Virus record (IMG/VR): IMGVR_UViG_3300048597_000092 | Location: 1 to 35,644 of that record | DNA length: 35,644 nucleotides | Reading direction: 5' to 3' (one strand) | Source: a virus | Shown here: positions 4,637 to 34,804 of the stretch, piece by piece | How positions within the stretch are numbered: the stretch's first letter is position 1 | How the letters are laid out: each line of letters begins with the position of its first letter | Position numbers and translations under genes: made by a program | Notes under the pieces: generated by a model | What the model was told of the DNA's origin: nothing | Databases searched by the model: none | Seen by the model: the letters and a program-made list of their open reading frames with translations, nothing else

Positions 4637-4959
4637 GCACCTTCCTCACACGCTGGGGCCGCCTCACCGGGCCCGAGTGGATCCGCCGCCGCTTCGATGA
4701 AGCCTCCCGCGAATGGCTCACCCCCGAGGTGCTCCATCACGCCTTCCTTCGCCTGCCCTACCACGACAGCAACGGTCAGGAGATCGTCGACCTCGACTTC
4801 ATCCGCATGTTCAGCGACGATCCCGCCGCCGCCCACCAGCAGCTGGAGCACGAGTGCACCGCCTACCTGAACCACCTCGCCGTCTGTGATCGCCGCCGCG
4901 CTGAACAGCAGGCACGCCAGCACCAGCAGACCACCGCCACGCAGCACTCCCTCCTCTGA
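4633..4959 (+). CDS. Unknown protein in the replication operon
   Basis: A 108-residue protein with a GTG start at 4633 that overlaps the RHH stop (GTGA); its own stop overlaps the primase-helicase start by one base. The sequence is aromatic and charged (FLTRWGRLTGPEWIRRRFDEA, then LTPEVLHHAFLRLPYHD), followed by acidic helices and a Gln/Arg-rich tail (RRRAEQQARQHQQTT). There is no Cys cluster, membrane segment or known motif. Tight coupling on both sides suggests it is made in fixed ratio with the replication protein, possibly as an accessory factor, but this is inference from position only. Confidence 0.65.
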   Translation: MSTFLTRWGRLTGPEWIRRRFDEASREWLTPEVLHHAFLRLPYHDSNGQEIVDLDFIRMFSDDPAAAHQQLEHECTAYLNHLAVCDRRRAEQQARQHQQTTATQHSLL

Positions 4960-7541
4960 TGCCTGCACCATCCCTGCCCCTCGACGAGGCGCAGGTCACA
5001 CGCTTCATGGCGCTGCTCGGCAAAACCCCGGACACCGCCCGCTTCCGTGCCTTCCCGCACGCCGAAAACCCCCACCGGGTCACCATCGGCCCGCGCAAAG
5101 GACCCTACGACCTCAAGGCCTTCGGCTTCTGGCAGGCCCAGGGCCGCGGCGTCTACATGGTCGTCAACGACGGCGGCGACACCAAGGCCTCGATCACCGT
5201 CTGCCGGGCCTTCTTCTGCGAATGGGACGATCGCCCCATCACCGACCAGCTCACCGCTTGGAAGGCCCTCGGCTACGGCGAGCCGACCTTCATCGTCCTC
5301 ACCGGCGGTAAGTCCGCTCACCTCTACTGGGTGCTCGCCGATCCCATCGCCCCCGACCAGTGGGAGCCGGTGCAGTCGGCACTCGTCGATCACGCCGGCG
5401 CCGACCCGAAGTGCAAAGACCTCCCCCGCGTCATGCGCCTCCCCGGCGGCCGCTACATCGGTCCCGATGGCACCCCCCAAGGTGAGACCGTCATCACCTC
5501 GGCCGCCGGCCGCCGCTACACCCTCGAGGAGGTCCTCAGCTGGCTTCCGGCCACCCCCACCCCACCACTGCAGCGCCAGGGCATCGACATCAGCGACCCC
5601 CGGCCGCTGGTGGTGGATCGCCCCCGCCCCCTCGATCAGGTGCGCGAGGCGCTCGCCGCCATCCCGCCCATCCTGCCTAAGACCGGACAGCGCGAGACCT
5701 TTCGCGCCATCGCCTGGGGGCTCCTCGGCGCCGTGCGTGAAGCCGGTGGGTCCGATGCCCTCGCCCTCCAGCTGCTACAGGCCCACAGCCCCGCGGTGAC
5801 CGACGCCGCCGAGTACCTGCAGAGCGAACCCCACACCATACGACCCAGCACTCTCTGGTATCACGCCAGGCAGCACGGCTGGCGCCCTCAGGAGGAGCGC
5901 ACCACCAGCGCCACCCCGGCACCGCCCCGGCACCACCCCGCCGCCACCCCGGCCGAACAGCCCGCCACCCCGCCGCTGCTCACCATCCACCAGGTGCGCA
6001 GCCAGCTGGCCGCGGCCGTCGCCGGCGGCGCTTCCGAAACCGATCTCGAGGTCTTGAAAATCGAGCTGGCCATGGCCAGTGACATGAACCCCGCCGCCCT
6101 CGGCGGGCTCCTTCGCTCCATCGCCAAGGAGCACGAGGCCGCCCAGTCCATCGCCGTCGAGACCCGTGGCCTCCGCGACGCTGCCGACTGGAAGGATGTC
6201 GGCGCCGCCATCACCCTGGAGGCCATCCTCCCGCCATCCATCGCCGCTGCCCTCCGCTGCCGTTGCAAGGCCCTCCCCACCGACGATGTGTCGGCGCTCA
6301 TGCCCTTCCTCGTCACTATCTCCAGCGCCCTGAAGCTCGGCAGCGAGGTGGTCGCCTCTGAAGCCGCCGACTACCGCGTGCCGCCCAACCTCTACGCCGC
6401 CTTGGTCGCCCGCTCCGGCGCCAAGAAGTCCCCCGTCTCCCGCCTCCTCGTCACCGCTCCCACCACCACCATTCGCCGCGAGCTCGCCAAGGCCCACACC
6501 CGCGCCCTTCAGGACTGGACCGAGCAGAACCGCAACGTCAAACCATCCGAACGCCCCGACCCGCCCCGGGCGGTGTTCATGTCCATCAGCGACACCACCG
6601 CCGAGGCCCTCGCCTCACAGCTGCAGGCCCAGGAGGTGCGCGGCCTTTCACTCCTCCTCCACCGCGATGAACTCGCCGGCATGTTCGGCTCCCTCAACGC
6701 CTACCGCTCCGGCCGCGGTGGTGATGAGGAGCAGCTGCTCGAAGCCTACGACGGCAGCGGCTTTCACTCCCTTCGCGTGGCGGCCACCGGCGGCGGACGC
6801 TTCTACGAACGCTGCCAGCTCTCCGTCTGGGGCACCATCCAGCCGGCCATCCTCGAGCGCCTGGTGGCCAATGGTGACGCCTCCGGCCTCTGGGCCCGCT
6901 TCATGTTCATCCCCCTTCCCGAGAAGGTCGTGCCGATCGCAGCCACTGAATCCACCAGCGAACGCGATGCCGCCGCCGATGCTGCCCTGCGCCTCAGCAA
7001 GATCTGCCAGCTGATCTACAAGCTCCCCCGCGCCTCCCTTTCCCTCACCGACGAGGCCCGGCGGGTGTTCTTCGACTACGAGGCCCGCTGCCAGGCCGAT
7101 GCCCTCGCCGCCCTTATCCCCGCCCAGGGCGCGCTGTGGGGGAAGGCCCCCGGCAAAGCACTACGCCTCGCCGGCCTGCTCCACACCATCCACCAGGTCG
7201 CTGGTGATGGTGATCACTCGCCACTGATCGAGGAGCAGATCATCCGGAACGCCGCCACCCTCGTCGATCACGTCAACAGCTGGACGATGAGCCTCCACGC
7301 TTCCGTCGAGCAGGGCCCCGCTACTCAGCTGATGCGCACCGTCCATCGGATTGCGCAGTCGCATGGTGGCTTCGTCAGCTCCCGCGACATCTGGTCGGCC
7401 ATGAGCCGTCAGCAGAGGAAGGAGATCGACTCGGCGGCCATCACCCAGGCGATGGAGGCACTGCAGGAACTGGGTTCTGGTGAGATTGAGCAGAGCCGGC
7501 GTGGCTCCATCCGGTACCAGGCGAACGGCGTTCTCCCGTGA
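4959..7541 (+). CDS. Replication primase-helicase (AEP-like plus DUF3987-type)
   Basis: An 860-residue protein from ATG 4959 (TGATG coupling). Residues 1-200 look like an archaeo-eukaryotic-type primase: an acidic metal motif in AFFCEWD (about 85-90), the s-x-H motif in GKSAHLYWVL (His121), and KDLPRVMRLPGG (about 153-164). A linker with the segment GQRETFRAIAWGLLGAV and a Pro-rich hinge (about 318-340) leads to a DUF3987-type ATPase core (about 415-830). The core has a degenerate P-loop RSGAKKSP (485-492), a Walker-B-like LLHRDELAG (570-571), a sensor segment LSVWGTIQP and a likely arginine finger in LWARF (Arg647). The protein should prime and unwind DNA at the phage origin. The iteron array directly after the gene is the probable target. 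The P-loop lacks the usual second glycine, a variation I believe also occurs in this family. Confidence 0.85.
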   Translation: MPAPSLPLDEAQVTRFMALLGKTPDTARFRAFPHAENPHRVTIGPRKGPYDLKAFGFWQAQGRGVYMVVNDGGDTKASITVCRAFFCEWDDRPITDQLTAWKALGYGEPTFIVLTGGKSAHLYWVLADPIAPDQWEPVQSALVDHAGADPKCKDLPRVMRLPGGRYIGPDGTPQGETVITSAAGRRYTLEEVLSWLPATPTPPLQRQGIDISDPRPLVVDRPRPLDQVREALAAIPPILPKTGQRETFRAIAWGLLGAVREAGGSDALALQLLQAHSPAVTDAAEYLQSEPHTIRPSTLWYHARQHGWRPQEERTTSATPAPPRHHPAATPAEQPATPPLLTIHQVRSQLAAAVAGGASETDLEVLKIELAMASDMNPAALGGLLRSIAKEHEAAQSIAVETRGLRDAADWKDVGAAITLEAILPPSIAAALRCRCKALPTDDVSALMPFLVTISSALKLGSEVVASEAADYRVPPNLYAALVARSGAKKSPVSRLLVTAPTTTIRRELAKAHTRALQDWTEQNRNVKPSERPDPPRAVFMSISDTTAEALASQLQAQEVRGLSLLLHRDELAGMFGSLNAYRSGRGGDEEQLLEAYDGSGFHSLRVAATGGGRFYERCQLSVWGTIQPAILERLVANGDASGLWARFMFIPLPEKVVPIAATESTSERDAAADAALRLSKICQLIYKLPRASLSLTDEARRVFFDYEARCQADALAALIPAQGALWGKAPGKALRLAGLLHTIHQVAGDGDHSPLIEEQIIRNAATLVDHVNSWTMSLHASVEQGPATQLMRTVHRIAQSHGGFVSSRDIWSAMSRQQRKEIDSAAITQAMEALQELGSGEIEQSRRGSIRYQANGVLP

Positions 7542-7593
7542 CCTCGCGCGCGGTGTGCTGAGTGTTGCGATCGGCTCTCAACTGGCCGACATA

Positions 7594-7874
7594 CGTGGGC
7601 GAATGTGGGCTGTGTGGGCTTCTGTGGGCTGGCGAGCCTACATTCACTTCCCTTCCGGCGCAGCGGGTTTCGGCAAAAAATGGCCGTTTGTGGGTTTGTG
7701 GGCTGCTTCGAGCGTGGGCGCGTTCGCGTGGCCCCTGAAAAGGGGAAAAAGAGAGGGCGAAAAGAGAAGGGGAACCCACAAACCCACACATATATATATT
7801 TCTTTCTAATCCCTTCCAGGGCAACGGATCTGACTGTGGGCTGCCCAGCCCACACATCGCCCACAGAACCCACA
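7594..7874. repeat. Iteron-rich, origin-like region
   Basis: Thirteen copies of an 8-mer near TGTGGGCT lie in 281 bp. Forward copies start at 7594, 7604, 7613, 7623, 7689, 7697, 7713 and 7835; reverse copies start at 7773, 7781, 7847, 7858 and 7867. The first four are 9-10 bp apart (one helical turn each). The 7835 and 7847 copies form a 20-bp dyad with 9-bp arms. Between the blocks is an A/T-rich tract (about 7788-7810) containing ATATATATATTTCTTTCTAA, the longest such run nearby, flanked by purine-rich DNA. Iterons plus an AT-rich unwinding element directly after the primase-helicase gene fit a theta-type replication origin. Frames across it are repetitive shadows. Confidence 0.65.
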
Positions 7875-7894
7875 CTCACCAGCCAGTGCCACCC

Positions 7895-8578
7895 ATGCTC
7901 CGCCGCCACCCCACCGACTGGCTCCCGCGACTTCCTGGCCTCTGCCGAGACGCAGAACACCGCTACCACCTGATCGATCGGTACGACGAAGGCGAAGCCT
8001 TCACCTTCCCGGTGTCGGTCACCGGCGTGCTCGCCGCCGGCAAGTCCACCTACGCCATGAAGGCCATCGAGGCCACGCGTGAGCAGTGGGAACCCCGCGG
8101 CAACACCGTGCACCGCGCCCTGGAGCTGGCCTGCACCGACCCGGCCTTCCACCCCGACCACTGGGGCCCGTGCTGGCGGTGGATCGACTGGGTGTGGCCG
8201 CTGCTCACCCACCCGCTCTGGGATGGCGTGGAGATCATCGCCAGCGAGATGGGGCTCTACGCCACCGACGGCAGCGTGGCGGGGACGTTCGACGGCGCCT
8301 ACCAGCTGCCCGGCGGCGAGCGGATCCTGTTCGACCTGAAGACCCAGGCGCGCGCGGATGCCGGCGCCTACGACACCCGCCCGCAGCTCGGCGGGTACCT
8401 GTGGATGGCGGCGCAACACGGCATCACCTTCGACGGGGCCGCAACGCTCTGGGCACGGCCCGGGAAGACCACCCCGCAGTGCTTCGGGGTGGATGAGTGC
8501 CTGGAGGCATGGGCGGCCGCCTGGGGGGCGTACAGGGCCCTCTCGCGGGGTGGGCGCCAGCCCCTGCTTATTGGCTGA
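7895..8578 (+). CDS. RecB/Cas4-like PD-(D/E)XK nuclease
   Basis: A 227-residue protein from ATG 7895; a GTG at 7886 is possible. All RecB-type nuclease motifs are visible: GNTVHRALE (His73), a Glu in SEMGLY (118), GTFDG (Asp133), FDLKTQ (Asp147-x-Lys149) and QLGGYLW (Gln164-x3-Tyr168). There is no C-terminal Cys cluster, so it is not an iron-sulfur Cas4. Phage enzymes of this type act as exonucleases that resect DNA ends for recombination and concatemer processing. No single-strand annealing protein was recognised beside it. Trp-rich stretches (WGPCWRWIDWVWP) between motifs I and II are unusual but keep the frame. It follows the origin-like region and is probably co-expressed with replication. 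Confidence 0.85.
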   Translation: MLRRHPTDWLPRLPGLCRDAEHRYHLIDRYDEGEAFTFPVSVTGVLAAGKSTYAMKAIEATREQWEPRGNTVHRALELACTDPAFHPDHWGPCWRWIDWVWPLLTHPLWDGVEIIASEMGLYATDGSVAGTFDGAYQLPGGERILFDLKTQARADAGAYDTRPQLGGYLWMAAQHGITFDGAATLWARPGKTTPQCFGVDECLEAWAAAWGAYRALSRGGRQPLLIG

Positions 8579-22101: not shown

Positions 22102-22479
22102 ATGATGCACCAGTACGCGCTGGAGAAACTCCAGCACTTCACCCTCCTCGCCACCACCACGATCACCGCCATCGGTGACCAGACCGGTGTGGATCTCGCC
22201 GGCTACGAAGGCGACATCCAGATCATCCTCAACGCCACCGCCGCCGGCTCTGGCGCCACCTTCGACTGCCGGATCGAGGAAGCCGACACCCTGGGCGGCA
22301 GCTACACCGCCGTCACCGGTGGTGGCTTCACCCAGATCGGCAACGCCGCTGCGAAGCAGGTGATCACCCTGAACTCCGACAACCTGAAGCGGTTCATCCG
22401 GTTCAGCGTGACGGCCGAGGGTGGCACCGCCTCGAGCGCCATCACCGTGAACGGCTACGGCCTGCTGAAGTACGGCTGA
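22102..22479 (+). CDS. Virion structural protein, beta-rich
   Basis: A 125-residue protein from ATG 22102; ATG 22105 is also possible. It is almost entirely beta, with alternating small and hydrophobic residues: LEKLQHFTLLATTTITAIGDQ, IQIILNATAAGSGATFDCRI, SYTAVTGGGFTQIGN, and ITLNSDNLKRFIRFSVTAEG, ending NGYGLLKYG. Similar proteins with a GTYTDV-type strand followed by a final L-K-R-F/Y-I/V-R strand lie after capsid genes in many phages and are thought to be decoration or neck parts. It is coupled by TGATG to the connector-fusion gene. Confidence 0.65.
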   Translation: MMHQYALEKLQHFTLLATTTITAIGDQTGVDLAGYEGDIQIILNATAAGSGATFDCRIEEADTLGGSYTAVTGGGFTQIGNAAAKQVITLNSDNLKRFIRFSVTAEGGTASSAITVNGYGLLKYG

Positions 22480-25400
22480 TGATCGAGGAGGATCTCACGG
22501 TCTTCCTTGCCGATTTCGGCGTCAGCATCACCGCTGGCGCCGTTTCTGGTTTGTGCCTCCTCGACATGCCGGGCGAGGTGGTGTTCGACGGCGTGCGGGA
22601 AACGTACACCGGGGCGCTGTCGACGATGTACAGCATCACCTGCCGGACGGATGAGTTCGGGCAGCTGGGCTACGGCGATTCGGTGACGGTGGATGGCGAG
22701 GTGTACACCGTGCAGGAGGCGCCGCTGTTGATCACCGATGGGGTGTTCTGTCGGATCAACTTGGAGAGAAGTGCCGTGGTTCAGTCTTCGTTGCCGGCGG
22801 TGTCGGTTGCCGTGTCGCCCAGCTCGACCGCAGAGGACGGCACCACCAACCTGGTGTTCACCTTCACCAGGACGCTCACCGCCGGAACGCTGTCGGTGAA
22901 CTACAGCATCGGCGGCACCGCGACGAACGGCACCGACTACGCCACGATTGGCACTTCGGTCACGATCCCTTCTGGCCAATCCTCAGGTACCGTCACGATC
23001 GATCCGACCACGGACGCAACCCTCGAGGGCAACGAGACTGTGATCCTGACGCTGGCTCCTGATGCCAGCTACACCATCGGCTCGCCTAACAGTGCGACCG
23101 GTCGGATCATGAACGACGAGGCAGGCACCAACGTGTTCGCGTTCGCCAGCGGGGATACCGTCATCGTCAGCGAGGCCGCCGGGGTGGCCGAGGTGGCGGT
23201 CATCCGTTCGGGCTCGACCGCAGCAGCGGCGACCTTGGAGTACACCGTCACGGCGATTCCTGCCGGCGCCACGGCCGGCGCCGATTACACGGTCCCGACC
23301 GAGCTTGGAGCGAACCTGGGCCAGGTCGTGTTTGGTGTCAGCCAAGCCTCTCAGGTGATCCAGGTGCCGGTCGTCAACGACGGCAGCACCGAAGGCAACG
23401 AGCTGTTCGCGGTGGCGATCCAGAACCCCAGCAGCGGCAGCCTGGGCGCCCCCAGGACGGCGCGGGTGCTGGTCGTGGACAACGACGGTGCGGCCCGGGT
23501 GTCCTACCTCTCAGCTGACCTGGAGGTGGCCCACGATGCCGGCGATCTCACGGTCACCCTGATTCGGGCCGGCTCCAGCGCATTTTCTGCCTCTGTGCTG
23601 CTGACGGCTGTTGCGGGTACGGCCGAGGCGGGCGTCCACTTCACTGCCACGTCCGAAACGGTGACCTTTCCGATCGGGAATGTCGTGCAGACGGTCAACG
23701 TGCCGATCTTGGCGACGGCGGCGCCGTTCAACTTCGCGGACTTCACGCTGACCATCGACAGCCCGACCGGGGCGTCGATCGAAGGCAGCGCCACCGCCGC
23801 GGTGCGGATCCTTGGCCCTGGTGTCGACTTGGGCTCCCTGAGTCGGTCGGTGTTCGTTGACGGCCTCACCGAACCGACCACGTTCGACTGGATCCCCGGC
23901 GATCCCGACACGATGCTGGTGGCACAGAAGCGCGGGCAGGTGCGGGTCGTCGAAGCCGGTGTCCTGCGCACGGAACCGCTGGTTGATCGAGCGTCGATCG
24001 TCAACATCGCCAACGATCGCGGCTTGATCGGCATGGCGATCCACCCGGATTTCCCCGCCAGCCCCTACGTCTACATCGGCTATAACTACGATCCACCGGA
24101 AACGATCGGCGCATCCGGTAACTCTGCGCCTGACGGGAACGGCAACCGGCCCGTGCGCGTCGAGCGGCTGACGGTCAACCCTGCGACCCTGCTGGCCACT
24201 GATTCCGTCGTCCTGGTTGGCACGAACAGCACCTGGGCCTTTACCAGCCGCCCTGACCTCAACTCCACGGGCGACCTCGGGATCCTGCCTTCCGGCATCG
24301 TCAACGGCACGACGATCACGGCATCCCCCGAGGACATCAGCACCGGCTACCAGGACAACAGCCCCGGGCAGAGCGGAACCCAGAACGAGAACATCCGTGA
24401 TTACATCGCCTGCGATTCGTTATCCCACGGTGTCGGCAACCTGGAGTTCGGCCCTGATGGCTACCTTTACCTGGCGGTGGGCGATGGCACGTCCTACAAC
24501 TTCATCGATGACCGTGCCGTCAGGGTGCAGGACATCGCCAACCTGTCGGGCAAGCTGCTGCGCTTCGACCCGCTGACGGGTGCTGGCGTGCCGAGCAACC
24601 CTTACTACGACGAGGACAGCGGGACGCCTGCTGGCACCAGCAACCAGTCCAAGGTCTTCTACTACGGCCTGCGCAACCCTTATCGCTTCACCTTCGATCC
24701 TGTCACCGAGCTGCCGGTGCTCGGCGACGTTGGCTATACGCAGCGCGAGAGCATCTACACGGGCCCACCAGGATCCAACTTCGGCTGGCCTTACGTCGAA
24801 GGCGACATCACGACACCCGGCTACGGAGAGCTCCCGCAGGCCGTCGCTTTCTTCGCCAATGGCAACATCAACGCAGGCAGCCCCAACCCGCTGCCGAATG
24901 TGCCGCCCCTGCGTGCCCTCACCCACGGCTCCCCCGACAGCTTTGAGTCGCTGACGATGGGACAGTTCTTCACGAACAACTCTTTCACGTATGCAGACCT
25001 GATTGATGGTCGAGTGTTCGCCGCCACCCTGGATGAAAACCGCGAAATCGTTAGCACCACGCAGTTCGATAGCGGTGTCAACTATCTAACCGATATTCGC
25101 ACAGGCCCTGACGGCAATATCTACGCCTGTCAAATTTACGGTCCCGGTTTTGGTCCCGGCAGAATTGTTCGCTGGGTTCCAGAAGACACGGGGCCGCCAC
25201 CCGCTGTTTCCGCCACCCTGTATCTGCCGTTCGCCTCCGACCTTCTGGATGCCAGCGGAAATAATTTTACAAACTTACACACAGCGAATCCCCCGACATT
25301 TGATCCTCTTGCCGAAACTCCAATAGGGTTCGGCGCAGCCGTATTTAACGGCACAAGTCAACACCTTGATTTCGGTGAATATCCTGAGTTCTTTAACCCC

Positions 25401-25865
25401 GGAACAGGCGATTTCTGTATAGCCTTCTGGGCACTGATGGATCCTATCGACAATCCCAACAGCTATCCAGCCGTCATTAGTAAGGGCTCCTATCAATCCT
25501 CAGCCGGAGCATGGGTTGTCTTTTTCGATCGGCCTAACAGCACAGCGATAAACTTTTCATACGGGAACCCATGGGTAGAACAATTAAAGTCGAATACTAC
25601 CGCGCACCCCAGCGGCGTGTTCCGCCACAACTACATACAGCGAAGCGGCAATACAATGACACTTCGTGTAAACAATGTTCTAGTCGATACACACGATGTA
25701 ACTGGGGTTGATTTCACCAGCAGCCACATATTGCTAGTAGGCAGAAGCCTTGTCAGTGATAACTGGAAAGGCGCTATCCGTGATCTGGTCTACATCGTAG
25801 GCGGCATCCTGACGCCAGAGCAGGTCACCGCGCTGCAAACTGCACCGTTTTCGGAGCTGCCTTAA
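22479..25865 (+). CDS. Head-tail connector fused to Calx-beta, sugar-dehydrogenase propeller and LamG
   Basis: An uninterrupted 1128-residue frame from ATG 22479 (TGATG coupling). Residues 1-97 match a lambda FII-like connector (EEDLTVFLADFGVSI, VVFDGVRETYTG, DSVTVDGEVYTVQEAPLL), the whole length of that protein. Three Calx-beta domains follow (about 105-215, 216-338, 339-447), with markers such as GTATNGTDY, TLEGNETVILTL and VVDND. Residues about 455-902 are a glucose/sorbosone dehydrogenase propeller: RGLIGMAIHPDFPAS, SHGVGNLEFGPDGYLYLAVG (His650), YYGLRNPYRFTFDP (Arg732-Asn733) and NFGWPYVEG. Residues about 913-1120 are a LamG lectin domain (GAAVFNGTSQHLDFG, FCIAFWALMD, RVNNVLVDTHDV). GC drops across LamG. 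It should form the neck ring with long glycan-binding arms. Confidence 0.85.
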   Translation: MIEEDLTVFLADFGVSITAGAVSGLCLLDMPGEVVFDGVRETYTGALSTMYSITCRTDEFGQLGYGDSVTVDGEVYTVQEAPLLITDGVFCRINLERSAVVQSSLPAVSVAVSPSSTAEDGTTNLVFTFTRTLTAGTLSVNYSIGGTATNGTDYATIGTSVTIPSGQSSGTVTIDPTTDATLEGNETVILTLAPDASYTIGSPNSATGRIMNDEAGTNVFAFASGDTVIVSEAAGVAEVAVIRSGSTAAAATLEYTVTAIPAGATAGADYTVPTELGANLGQVVFGVSQASQVIQVPVVNDGSTEGNELFAVAIQNPSSGSLGAPRTARVLVVDNDGAARVSYLSADLEVAHDAGDLTVTLIRAGSSAFSASVLLTAVAGTAEAGVHFTATSETVTFPIGNVVQTVNVPILATAAPFNFADFTLTIDSPTGASIEGSATAAVRILGPGVDLGSLSRSVFVDGLTEPTTFDWIPGDPDTMLVAQKRGQVRVVEAGVLRTEPLVDRASIVNIANDRGLIGMAIHPDFPASPYVYIGYNYDPPETIGASGNSAPDGNGNRPVRVERLTVNPATLLATDSVVLVGTNSTWAFTSRPDLNSTGDLGILPSGIVNGTTITASPEDISTGYQDNSPGQSGTQNENIRDYIACDSLSHGVGNLEFGPDGYLYLAVGDGTSYNFIDDRAVRVQDIANLSGKLLRFDPLTGAGVPSNPYYDEDSGTPAGTSNQSKVFYYGLRNPYRFTFDPVTELPVLGDVGYTQRESIYTGPPGSNFGWPYVEGDITTPGYGELPQAVAFFANGNINAGSPNPLPNVPPLRALTHGSPDSFESLTMGQFFTNNSFTYADLIDGRVFAATLDENREIVSTTQFDSGVNYLTDIRTGPDGNIYACQIYGPGFGPGRIVRWVPEDTGPPPAVSATLYLPFASDLLDASGNNFTNLHTANPPTFDPLAETPIGFGAAVFNGTSQHLDFGEYPEFFNPGTGDFCIAFWALMDPIDNPNSYPAVISKGSYQSSAGAWVVFFDRPNSTAINFSYGNPWVEQLKSNTTAHPSGVFRHNYIQRSGNTMTLRVNNVLVDTHDVTGVDFTSSHILLVGRSLVSDNWKGAIRDLVYIVGGILTPEQVTALQTAPFSELP

Positions 25866-33788: not shown

Positions 33789-34804
33789 CGACATTCCCCG
33801 CGCTCATCCCATCCACCCGCACCTATTCGGCTGGCGAGTATCCGAACACGGCGCATCCGTTGCTGAGCGGTTCGGAGATTCGAGTGCGACACTCCAATAC
33901 CGTGCTCGGCGTGCGGCTGCGTCTGACATTTGTGGCAGTCACGTCGGAGGATCTGCTGGCAGTGCGGAACCACTACAACGGTCGCCGGGGTGGGTTCCTG
34001 CCATTTGCCATCCCTGACGAGATCCTCAGCGGTGTTGAGACGCCGGCCGACTTCACGCCAGCAGAACATCAGTGGCGCTACGCCAGTCGGCCACGGGTGG
34101 TAGACGTGCCCATCGCTGGGGCCACGCCGACGAACCGGCATGACCTAGTGGTGGAGCTGGAGACAGTGCCGCCGGAGAACACGATTGTGGCAGGCGCGCG
34201 AATCACAGTGCAGTCATTACTACAAGCGGGCAGCCCAGATCGTGGGGCACTGATTAGTGCATTCGCCTACATTGAATCAGGGTTGGCGGCGGCGGTGGAT
34301 GAAGCCTATGCGCTAGGCGCGCTGCTGGATGCTGATGTGACGCTTCAGGCTGGGGATGCAACCGCAGAATCGGCTAGCAGCATTGATGTTTCTGCCATTA
34401 CATACACTCAGAGCAGTGTGTTCCCTGGCAACGCGGCTGCAACAAATGCCGGCATGACCAACGGAGTTTTTGCAGAGACCACGCAAACTGGAACCAACAT
34501 CACCGCCCCTGCTTGGGTCCAGATGGATCTGGGCGACGTTTTTCCTGTTGCTACCATCTACGTGGGGACAGACTTTAGCAACACATTGGCCGGGGGCTGG
34601 GGCACTATCTACACCGAAGGCGCGGTCATTGAACACTCTATGGACGCATCAACGTGGACATCTGTCGCCACTGTTGGCACATTCACAACAGGGATCCAGA
34701 CGTTCTCGGTTTCGTTCAACGCAAGATACATAAGAATCCGCAGAGGCACTAATTTTATCTCTGATTACGTTTGCGTCACCGAGTTCTACGCCACCTCGGC
34801 GTAG
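33785..34804 (+). CDS. Tail protein with C-terminal discoidin (F5/8C-like) domain
   Basis: A 339-residue protein from ATG 33785 (ATGA overlap). Residues 1-120 (TFPALIPSTRTYSAGEYPN, then LLAVRNHYNGRRGGFLPFAI) are a tail domain that recurs in the gene at 35263. A middle region (about 150-195) holds a helix (RGALISAFAYIESGLAAAVD). Residues 205-339 look like a discoidin lectin: SSVFPGNAAATNAGMTNGVF, PAWVQMDLGDVFPVATIYVG, AVIEHSMDASTWTSVATVG and FSVSFNARYIRIRRGTN. Discoidin domains bind carbohydrates or lipids, so this is a likely receptor-binding or surface-docking part. GC falls in the lectin part. Confidence 0.7.
   Translation: MTTFPALIPSTRTYSAGEYPNTAHPLLSGSEIRVRHSNTVLGVRLRLTFVAVTSEDLLAVRNHYNGRRGGFLPFAIPDEILSGVETPADFTPAEHQWRYASRPRVVDVPIAGATPTNRHDLVVELETVPPENTIVAGARITVQSLLQAGSPDRGALISAFAYIESGLAAAVDEAYALGALLDADVTLQAGDATAESASSIDVSAITYTQSSVFPGNAAATNAGMTNGVFAETTQTGTNITAPAWVQMDLGDVFPVATIYVGTDFSNTLAGGWGTIYTEGAVIEHSMDASTWTSVATVGTFTTGIQTFSVSFNARYIRIRRGTNFISDYVCVTEFYATSA

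Follow-up and report, generated by a model that had tools for sequence, protein, structure and literature searches.

A candidate replication origin of mirrored iterons beside a PrimPol–DUF3987 gene in a viral genome, and related arrays beside DUF3987 genes on cyanobacterial plasmids

The stretch of DNA analysed here – the window, a virus record of 35,644 bp – carries on its plus strand an open reading frame (4959–7541) for an 860-residue primase-helicase, a candidate initiator of replication. Its N-terminal part is an AEP PrimPol like that of cyanophage S-2L (6zp9, E 3e-25, residues 4–166; 35% identity by tblastn), followed at residues 446–770 by a DUF3987 domain (PF13148, E 3e-38, 132 bits against a gathering cut-off of 27). 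DUF3987 is a predicted helicase of mobile-element replication proteins (PMC5862659). At the protein's end, encoded at 7281–7538 (plus strand), AlphaFold2 predicts a winged helix of about 75 residues, a candidate reader of the repeats that follow: the model of the 86 C-terminal residues has a mean pLDDT of 81 and the element order H-H-H-H-E-E, and its best VIA Z scores (about 10–11) are to winged-helix regulators such as Fur, Zur, PerR and BlaI, with no PDB initiator protein prominent among the structure matches. The model of the helicase core is poor (mean pLDDT 47) and unusable, and a phmmer search of the 860 residues against PDB sequences returned the S-2L PrimPol only. The next gene (7895–8578, plus strand) encodes a PD-(D/E)XK exonuclease-like protein (phrog_298 exonuclease, E 8e-12). 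The terminase makes a picocyanobacterial host likely, its nearest match being the one from Synechococcus phage S-LBS1 (52%). Elsewhere in the window, a phage protein of 1,128 residues (22479–25865, plus strand) begins like a phage head-tail attachment protein and also contains Calx-beta repeats and a glucose/sorbosone dehydrogenase domain, a combination that is uncommon in structural genes.

Between the primase-helicase and exonuclease-like genes, at 7594–7874, the initial annotation had reported thirteen iterons in the arrangement of an origin. All sites were found again: 13 near-copies of TGTGGGCT, eight forward (7594, 7604, 7613, 7623, 7689, 7697, 7713 and 7835) and five reverse (7773, 7781, 7847, 7858 and 7867). 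Exact TGTGGG occurs in 11 of the 13; the forward copies at 7594 and 7713 read CGTGGGCG, with two mismatches against the consensus. The left outer block (7594–7630, plus strand) is the phased quartet of the annotation, its four forward iterons spaced 10, 9 and 10 bp. Its last member also begins an imperfect dyad that had gone unnoticed (TGTGGGCTGGCGAGCCTACA, 7623–7642), with a reverse iteron, TGTAGGCT (minus strand), at 7635. The left inner pair (7689–7704, plus strand, spacing 8) starts 66 bp past the last left outer iteron and precedes the degenerate forward copy at 7713–7720. In the central region, a 37-bp purine tract (7738–7774, plus strand, 97% purine) runs up to the right inner pair of reverse iterons, TGTGGGTT (7773–7788, minus strand, spacing 8). 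The adjoining stretch at 7789–7834, a candidate unwinding element, is 61% AT in a genome of 35% AT and contains ATATATATATTT, the tract that had been noted between the blocks; the interval between the inner pairs, at 40% AT against 35% for the window, is only slightly AT-richer. The right outer block (7835–7874, minus strand) consists of the 20-bp dyad already annotated, which is perfect (7835–7854), and the reverse iterons at 7847, 7858 and 7867. Written as spacings in bp, the layout is 9,10 / 66 / 8 / core 78 / 8 / 52 / 14,11,9.

With one mismatch allowed, TGTGGGCT occurs 40 times in the whole window against 37.6 expected by chance, so it is the clustering of the iterons, not their number, that is unusual. 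TGTGGG is found 11 times in 7542–7885; 2,000 dinucleotide shuffles averaged 0.36 copies and never gave more than 4. Clusters of 6-, 7- or 8-mers of such density arose in none of 100 shuffles of the whole window, and TGTGGG forms no further cluster elsewhere in it. These clustered, near-identical short repeats lie beside the gene of the putative initiator, starting 53–63 bp past its stop codon and thus directly downstream, the place of the origin in SaPI-type Rep/ori systems. In L003, a 97%-identical relative, 1 of 112 iteron bases has changed against 16 of 246 elsewhere in the intergenic stretch (Fisher two-sided P 0.028), and the sole iteron change brings that copy to the consensus. GC skew goes from about −0.24 at 4.5–7 kb to +0.09 at 9–10.5 kb, a local change of sign near 8 kb; its genome-wide cumulative minimum is near 14 kb, and skew does not single out the place of the array. 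A search for DnaA boxes gave no match. Away from the origin candidate, the contig of L003 (here L098) has a further repeat cluster, 14 CTGGCCC within 350 bp (7756–8104).

An array in this position could serve transcription instead. It ends 21 bp before the ATG of the exonuclease-like gene, and many regulators contain a winged helix of this fold, both of which would suit an operator array for the downstream exonuclease operon, bound by a repressor or activator – perhaps by Rep itself, in autoregulation – and not an origin. Against this, a promoter and terminator scan found none, including no sigma-70-like promoter at 7400–8100 (non-canonical promoters fall outside such a scan), and 11–14 sites in mirrored halves over 270–300 bp are more than operators usually have.

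Scanning the collection for three closely spaced iterons returned 27 contigs, among which only two, judged by eye, have arrays of the window's type: L069, the contig of L003, and L070. The other 25 were rejected, also by eye, mostly as simple tandem repeats, and they could be taken as a sign that the window's array, too, is accidental low-complexity or peptide-repeat DNA without function. We find this hardly credible, given the mirrored layout on two strands, the conservation of iteron bases relative to their neighbours and the recurrence of arrays beside the same protein.

In the phage L070, a protein of 724 residues matches residues 331–860 of the window protein (48% identity over 535 aligned positions), with a Zn-ribbon primase as its N-terminus in place of the PrimPol. 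From about 70 bp past its stop codon follow five forward and five reverse TGTGGG, spaced 11,11 / 66 / 9 / 84 / 9,9 / 65 / 15, with an AT-rich stretch in their midst (67% AT, where the locus as a whole has 36%). A third phage, L079, found by protein search (47% identity), has no TGTGGG array; its record contains 14 TGTCGG-type iterons (the TGTCGGCT array), one base off TGTGGG, in a gap 4.4 kb downstream of the rep gene. This array supports a pairing of the protein with a kind of iteron. Adjacency is not absolute, since the L079 array is so far removed and the AGTAGAC array of the Picosynechococcus plasmid L112 lies about 1 kb upstream of rep. On an unrelated viral contig (L059, 761–799), four tandem TGTGGG precede a RecT gene by about 300 bp.

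A second set of relatives shares the PrimPol half and has other helicases – D5_N/DUF5906 in L004, L006, L009 and L038, VapE in L028. These loci show no TGTGGG clusters and carry TTGCGTCCG, TTGCCTTCG, TTGCCTCCG and GGTTGGACA iterons at the equivalent place. At least six copies of another iteron follow the stop codon in 29 of 41 PrimPol loci (44 minus three cut off at the stop), many of the 29 being near-duplicates, and the 12 loci without such an array there are mostly low-GC or other-helicase contigs; as background, 60 of 753 tiles of 850 bp reach six copies, mostly at these same array places. Sequence comparison therefore indicates that the iteron follows the helicase/winged-helix half and not the primase half, since L070 keeps TGTGGG and, among the PrimPol relatives, a different helicase comes with a different iteron. 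The initial annotation had proposed searching relatives for conserved iterons; arrays were found, and an absence of repeats from relatives with the same primase was not borne out.

Among isolated phages, S-LBS1 (L117) has 11 CCTAACC directly past its PrimPol–VapE gene, a count reached in none of 500 shuffles; the covered parts of the S-LBS1 paper contain neither 'iteron' nor 'repeat'. The CCTAACC-type array lies at the end of the S-LBS1 record (34236–34641), where a stretch of roughly 110 bp is present twice, and the record end or the assembly may need a look. For S-2L (L115), GTGCC copies seen by eye in the 360-bp gap past the gene were rejected as a shared array, the 5-mer count being reached by 22 of 500 shuffles and the 6-mer count by 246 of 500. 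In L013, about a dozen GAGAATCATTCTCA-like palindrome halves, which we take to resemble a Fur box, occur within 230 bp (7436–7662), 2.7 kb downstream of the PrimPol gene.

Searched against the phage collection, the helicase half found no record at E 1e-5; it matches 38 plasmids, nearly all cyanobacterial, and by sequence the closest other relatives are DUF3987 proteins of cyanobacterial plasmids. We compared the densest 7-mer cluster, without a preset motif, with 20 shuffles in 30 loci: 24 cyanobacterial plasmid DUF3987 loci, one Priestia plasmid (truncated by the end of its record), S-2L, the window, L003, L070 and L079. It is denser than in any of the shuffles in 26 of the 30, the loci without a significant one being L079 (as a fetched 9.6-kb locus), L106, S-2L and Priestia. 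In 20 of the 30, the start of the strongest cluster falls in a range from about 1,000 bp upstream of the rep stop codon to 265 bp downstream of it, which corresponds to the C-terminal tail behind the winged helix or to the DNA immediately beyond the gene. Closely related loci are included in this count (the window and L003; the Planktothrix loci L089, L104 and L108), and for the unannotated L105 the end of the protein match served as gene end. The top cluster lies elsewhere in L101, L103, L107, L112 and L113; L088 also has a stronger cluster elsewhere, and eight AAAGGTG copies follow its C-terminal region. The cluster past the helicase in L103, with its 87-bp period and the look of a peptide repeat, was excluded from the iteron arrays. 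Second, unrelated repeat clusters (L103 2506–2882, L088 1350–1728, L113 6973–7372 and the first 1.7 kb of L099 and L104), upstream of or away from rep, are possibly partition sites or control iterons, and in L081 a DUF3987/RepB-primase gene is followed, at a distance of about 1.9 kb, by eight CTTGTCC (7217–7589).

Most of the plasmid arrays lie within the rep reading frame, where they occupy both strands and, in several plasmids, several reading frames, which indicates selection on the DNA and not on the peptide; many of the related arrays belong to a few clades, so the loci are not independent. Such in-frame positions, and the gap of 4.4 kb between gene and array in L079, are at odds with an operator for a downstream operon, and we regard that explanation as unlikely, while an origin array may double as a regulator. 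Sites of parC and terminase, too, are marked by arrays of repeats, and ParM/ParA genes are found nearby on some of the plasmids, so that a centromere-like partition site or a cos/pac packaging site has to be considered. Some 8 kb, however, separate the window's array from the gene of the large terminase, and in phages as in plasmids such arrays are found again next to or within primase-helicase genes, whatever the neighbours, which makes a partition or packaging site very improbable.

After manual alignment of the frames, [TA]GTNRRC[TA] describes most of the iterons associated with DUF3987 – TGTGGGCT, TGTCGGCT, TGTCAGCA, TGTAGACA, TGTGGACT, AGTGGACT, AGTAGACA and AGTTGACA – with a sequence that differs between replicons; exceptions to the pattern include AGTGTAAT and TTAGGGAT. 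Many arrays also share a plan, in which an outer block of 3–4 iterons, a gap, an inner pair 8–9 bp apart and a core are followed by their mirror image, as in L102 (9,12,12 / 66 / 9,9 / 140 / 9,9 / 69 / 12,12,9); L082, L105, L111 and L113 are less regular. Gaps between same-strand blocks bunch near 42, 55, 66 and 79 bp, with a best period of 12.2 bp (R 0.69; 38 gaps, 18 loci) that was reached by none of 5,000 uniform and none of 5,000 multiple-of-3 nulls (P about 1.5e-4 with one gap per locus), where seeds and gap ranges were picked after seeing the data and the loci are related. At 10.5 bp, R is 0.20 (53 gaps, PrimPol loci included); as the best period is 12.2 and not 10.5, simple helical phasing is not established. 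Duplicates and weak arrays (L003, L101, L103, L104, L106, L107, L108, L110, L112 and L113) were left out of this test and of a Mantel test of winged-helix against iteron distance, which gave no simple recognition code (r 0.09, P 0.23, n = 18 loci). Nor is a purine-rich core general: the relatives' cores are mostly near 50–60% top-strand purine. For this figure the core was equated with the longest strand switch, a choice that misplaces the interval where an array changes strand more than once. Three co-resident plasmids of Crinalium PCC 9333 carry three different iterons, although two of the Rep proteins share 84% identity in their C-termini.

We consider it highly probable that the array at 7594–7874 is the phage's replication origin; the comparison supports the origin architecture first proposed for it. 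Four lines point this way: the same iteron is kept beside a 48%-identical helicase with an unrelated primase half, arrays of the same general plan lie at the ends of DUF3987 rep genes on cyanobacterial plasmids, arrays of other iterons follow PrimPol relatives with other helicases, and a winged helix is predicted at the protein's C-terminus. At such an origin, this C-terminal domain would bind the 8-bp iterons, and the forward half-array (outer block and inner pair) and the reverse half-array would each seat helicase subunits. Two helicase rings would then face outward around the central 80–100 bp, as in SaPI Rep/ori, the DNA would open in its AT-rich part – the place of melting and the direction being our supposition – and the fused PrimPol would make the first primers.

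Whether phages have in common with cyanobacterial plasmids a self-contained replicon of a kind not yet described is, in our judgement, evenly balanced. Such a replicon would encode a modular primase-helicase ending in a winged helix, with the origin directly past or within the tail of its own gene and built on one plan with gap steps of about 12 bp; iterons would drift within [TA]GTNRRC[TA], and primase and helicase modules would be exchanged, the origin travelling with the helicase/winged-helix end. Drift within a fixed frame would mean that co-resident replicons, such as the three Crinalium PCC 9333 plasmids, do not read each other's origins.

DUF3987, which occurs on many mobile elements and is labelled as of 'unknown function', would gain a testable role as an origin-binding initiator helicase. 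Candidate origins can be placed on about twenty named cyanobacterial plasmids, in a group with few origins and few compatible vectors; related winged helices with differing iterons beside them, those of the Crinalium plasmids included, make a protein–DNA recognition code directly testable, and S-LBS1, an isolated phage with an array past its own PrimPol gene, offers a culturable system.

Several known systems invite comparison. Searches of the open PMC literature, with subscription journals mostly outside it, found no description of iterons beside DUF3987 proteins. AEP–DUF3987 fusions were covered by Kazlauskas et al. 2018, the source of the helicase prediction for DUF3987 given above (PMC5862659); the main text does not mention iterons. 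The S-2L PrimPol–VirE protein has the same PrimPol half, but its helicase, unlike that of the window protein, is VapE-type, and no significant array follows its gene. CyRepA1/CyRepA2 replicons resemble the window's system as cyanobacterial replicons with a primase-helicase Rep protein; CyRepA combines DUF3854 with DEXDc (PMC10079941), and Pfam found DUF3987 and no DUF3854 in the window protein, L070, L079, L081 and L082. The word 'iteron' is absent from the main texts of PMC10079941, PMC9978351 and PMC10899382. Iteron plasmids, with theta origins and rep-proximal direct repeats, share the clustered repeats near a putative initiator gene and, with the candidate unwinding element at 7789–7834, an AT-rich stretch, but not the two mirrored half-arrays, nor a putative initiator that is itself primase and helicase – for which reason loading of a host helicase may not be needed.

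Precedents are SaPI Rep/ori and SCCmec Cch2 with its putative ori, in which a C-terminal domain of the helicase binds short iterons and the origin is directly downstream of its own gene, binding of two hexamers being proposed (PMC7581432). The window likewise pairs a candidate initiator helicase, with a predicted C-terminal winged helix, with an array directly downstream. Unlike SaPI Rep, its helicase is DUF3987 with a fused PrimPol, the likeness noted here between the helicases being one of architecture, and unlike the SaPI ori, the iterons are 8-bp [TA]GTNRRC[TA] elements in outer and inner blocks with stepped gaps, lying mostly inside the rep frame on plasmids. The initiator helicase with an iteron origin beside its own gene is a known kind, and what would be new here is its DUF3987/PrimPol version.
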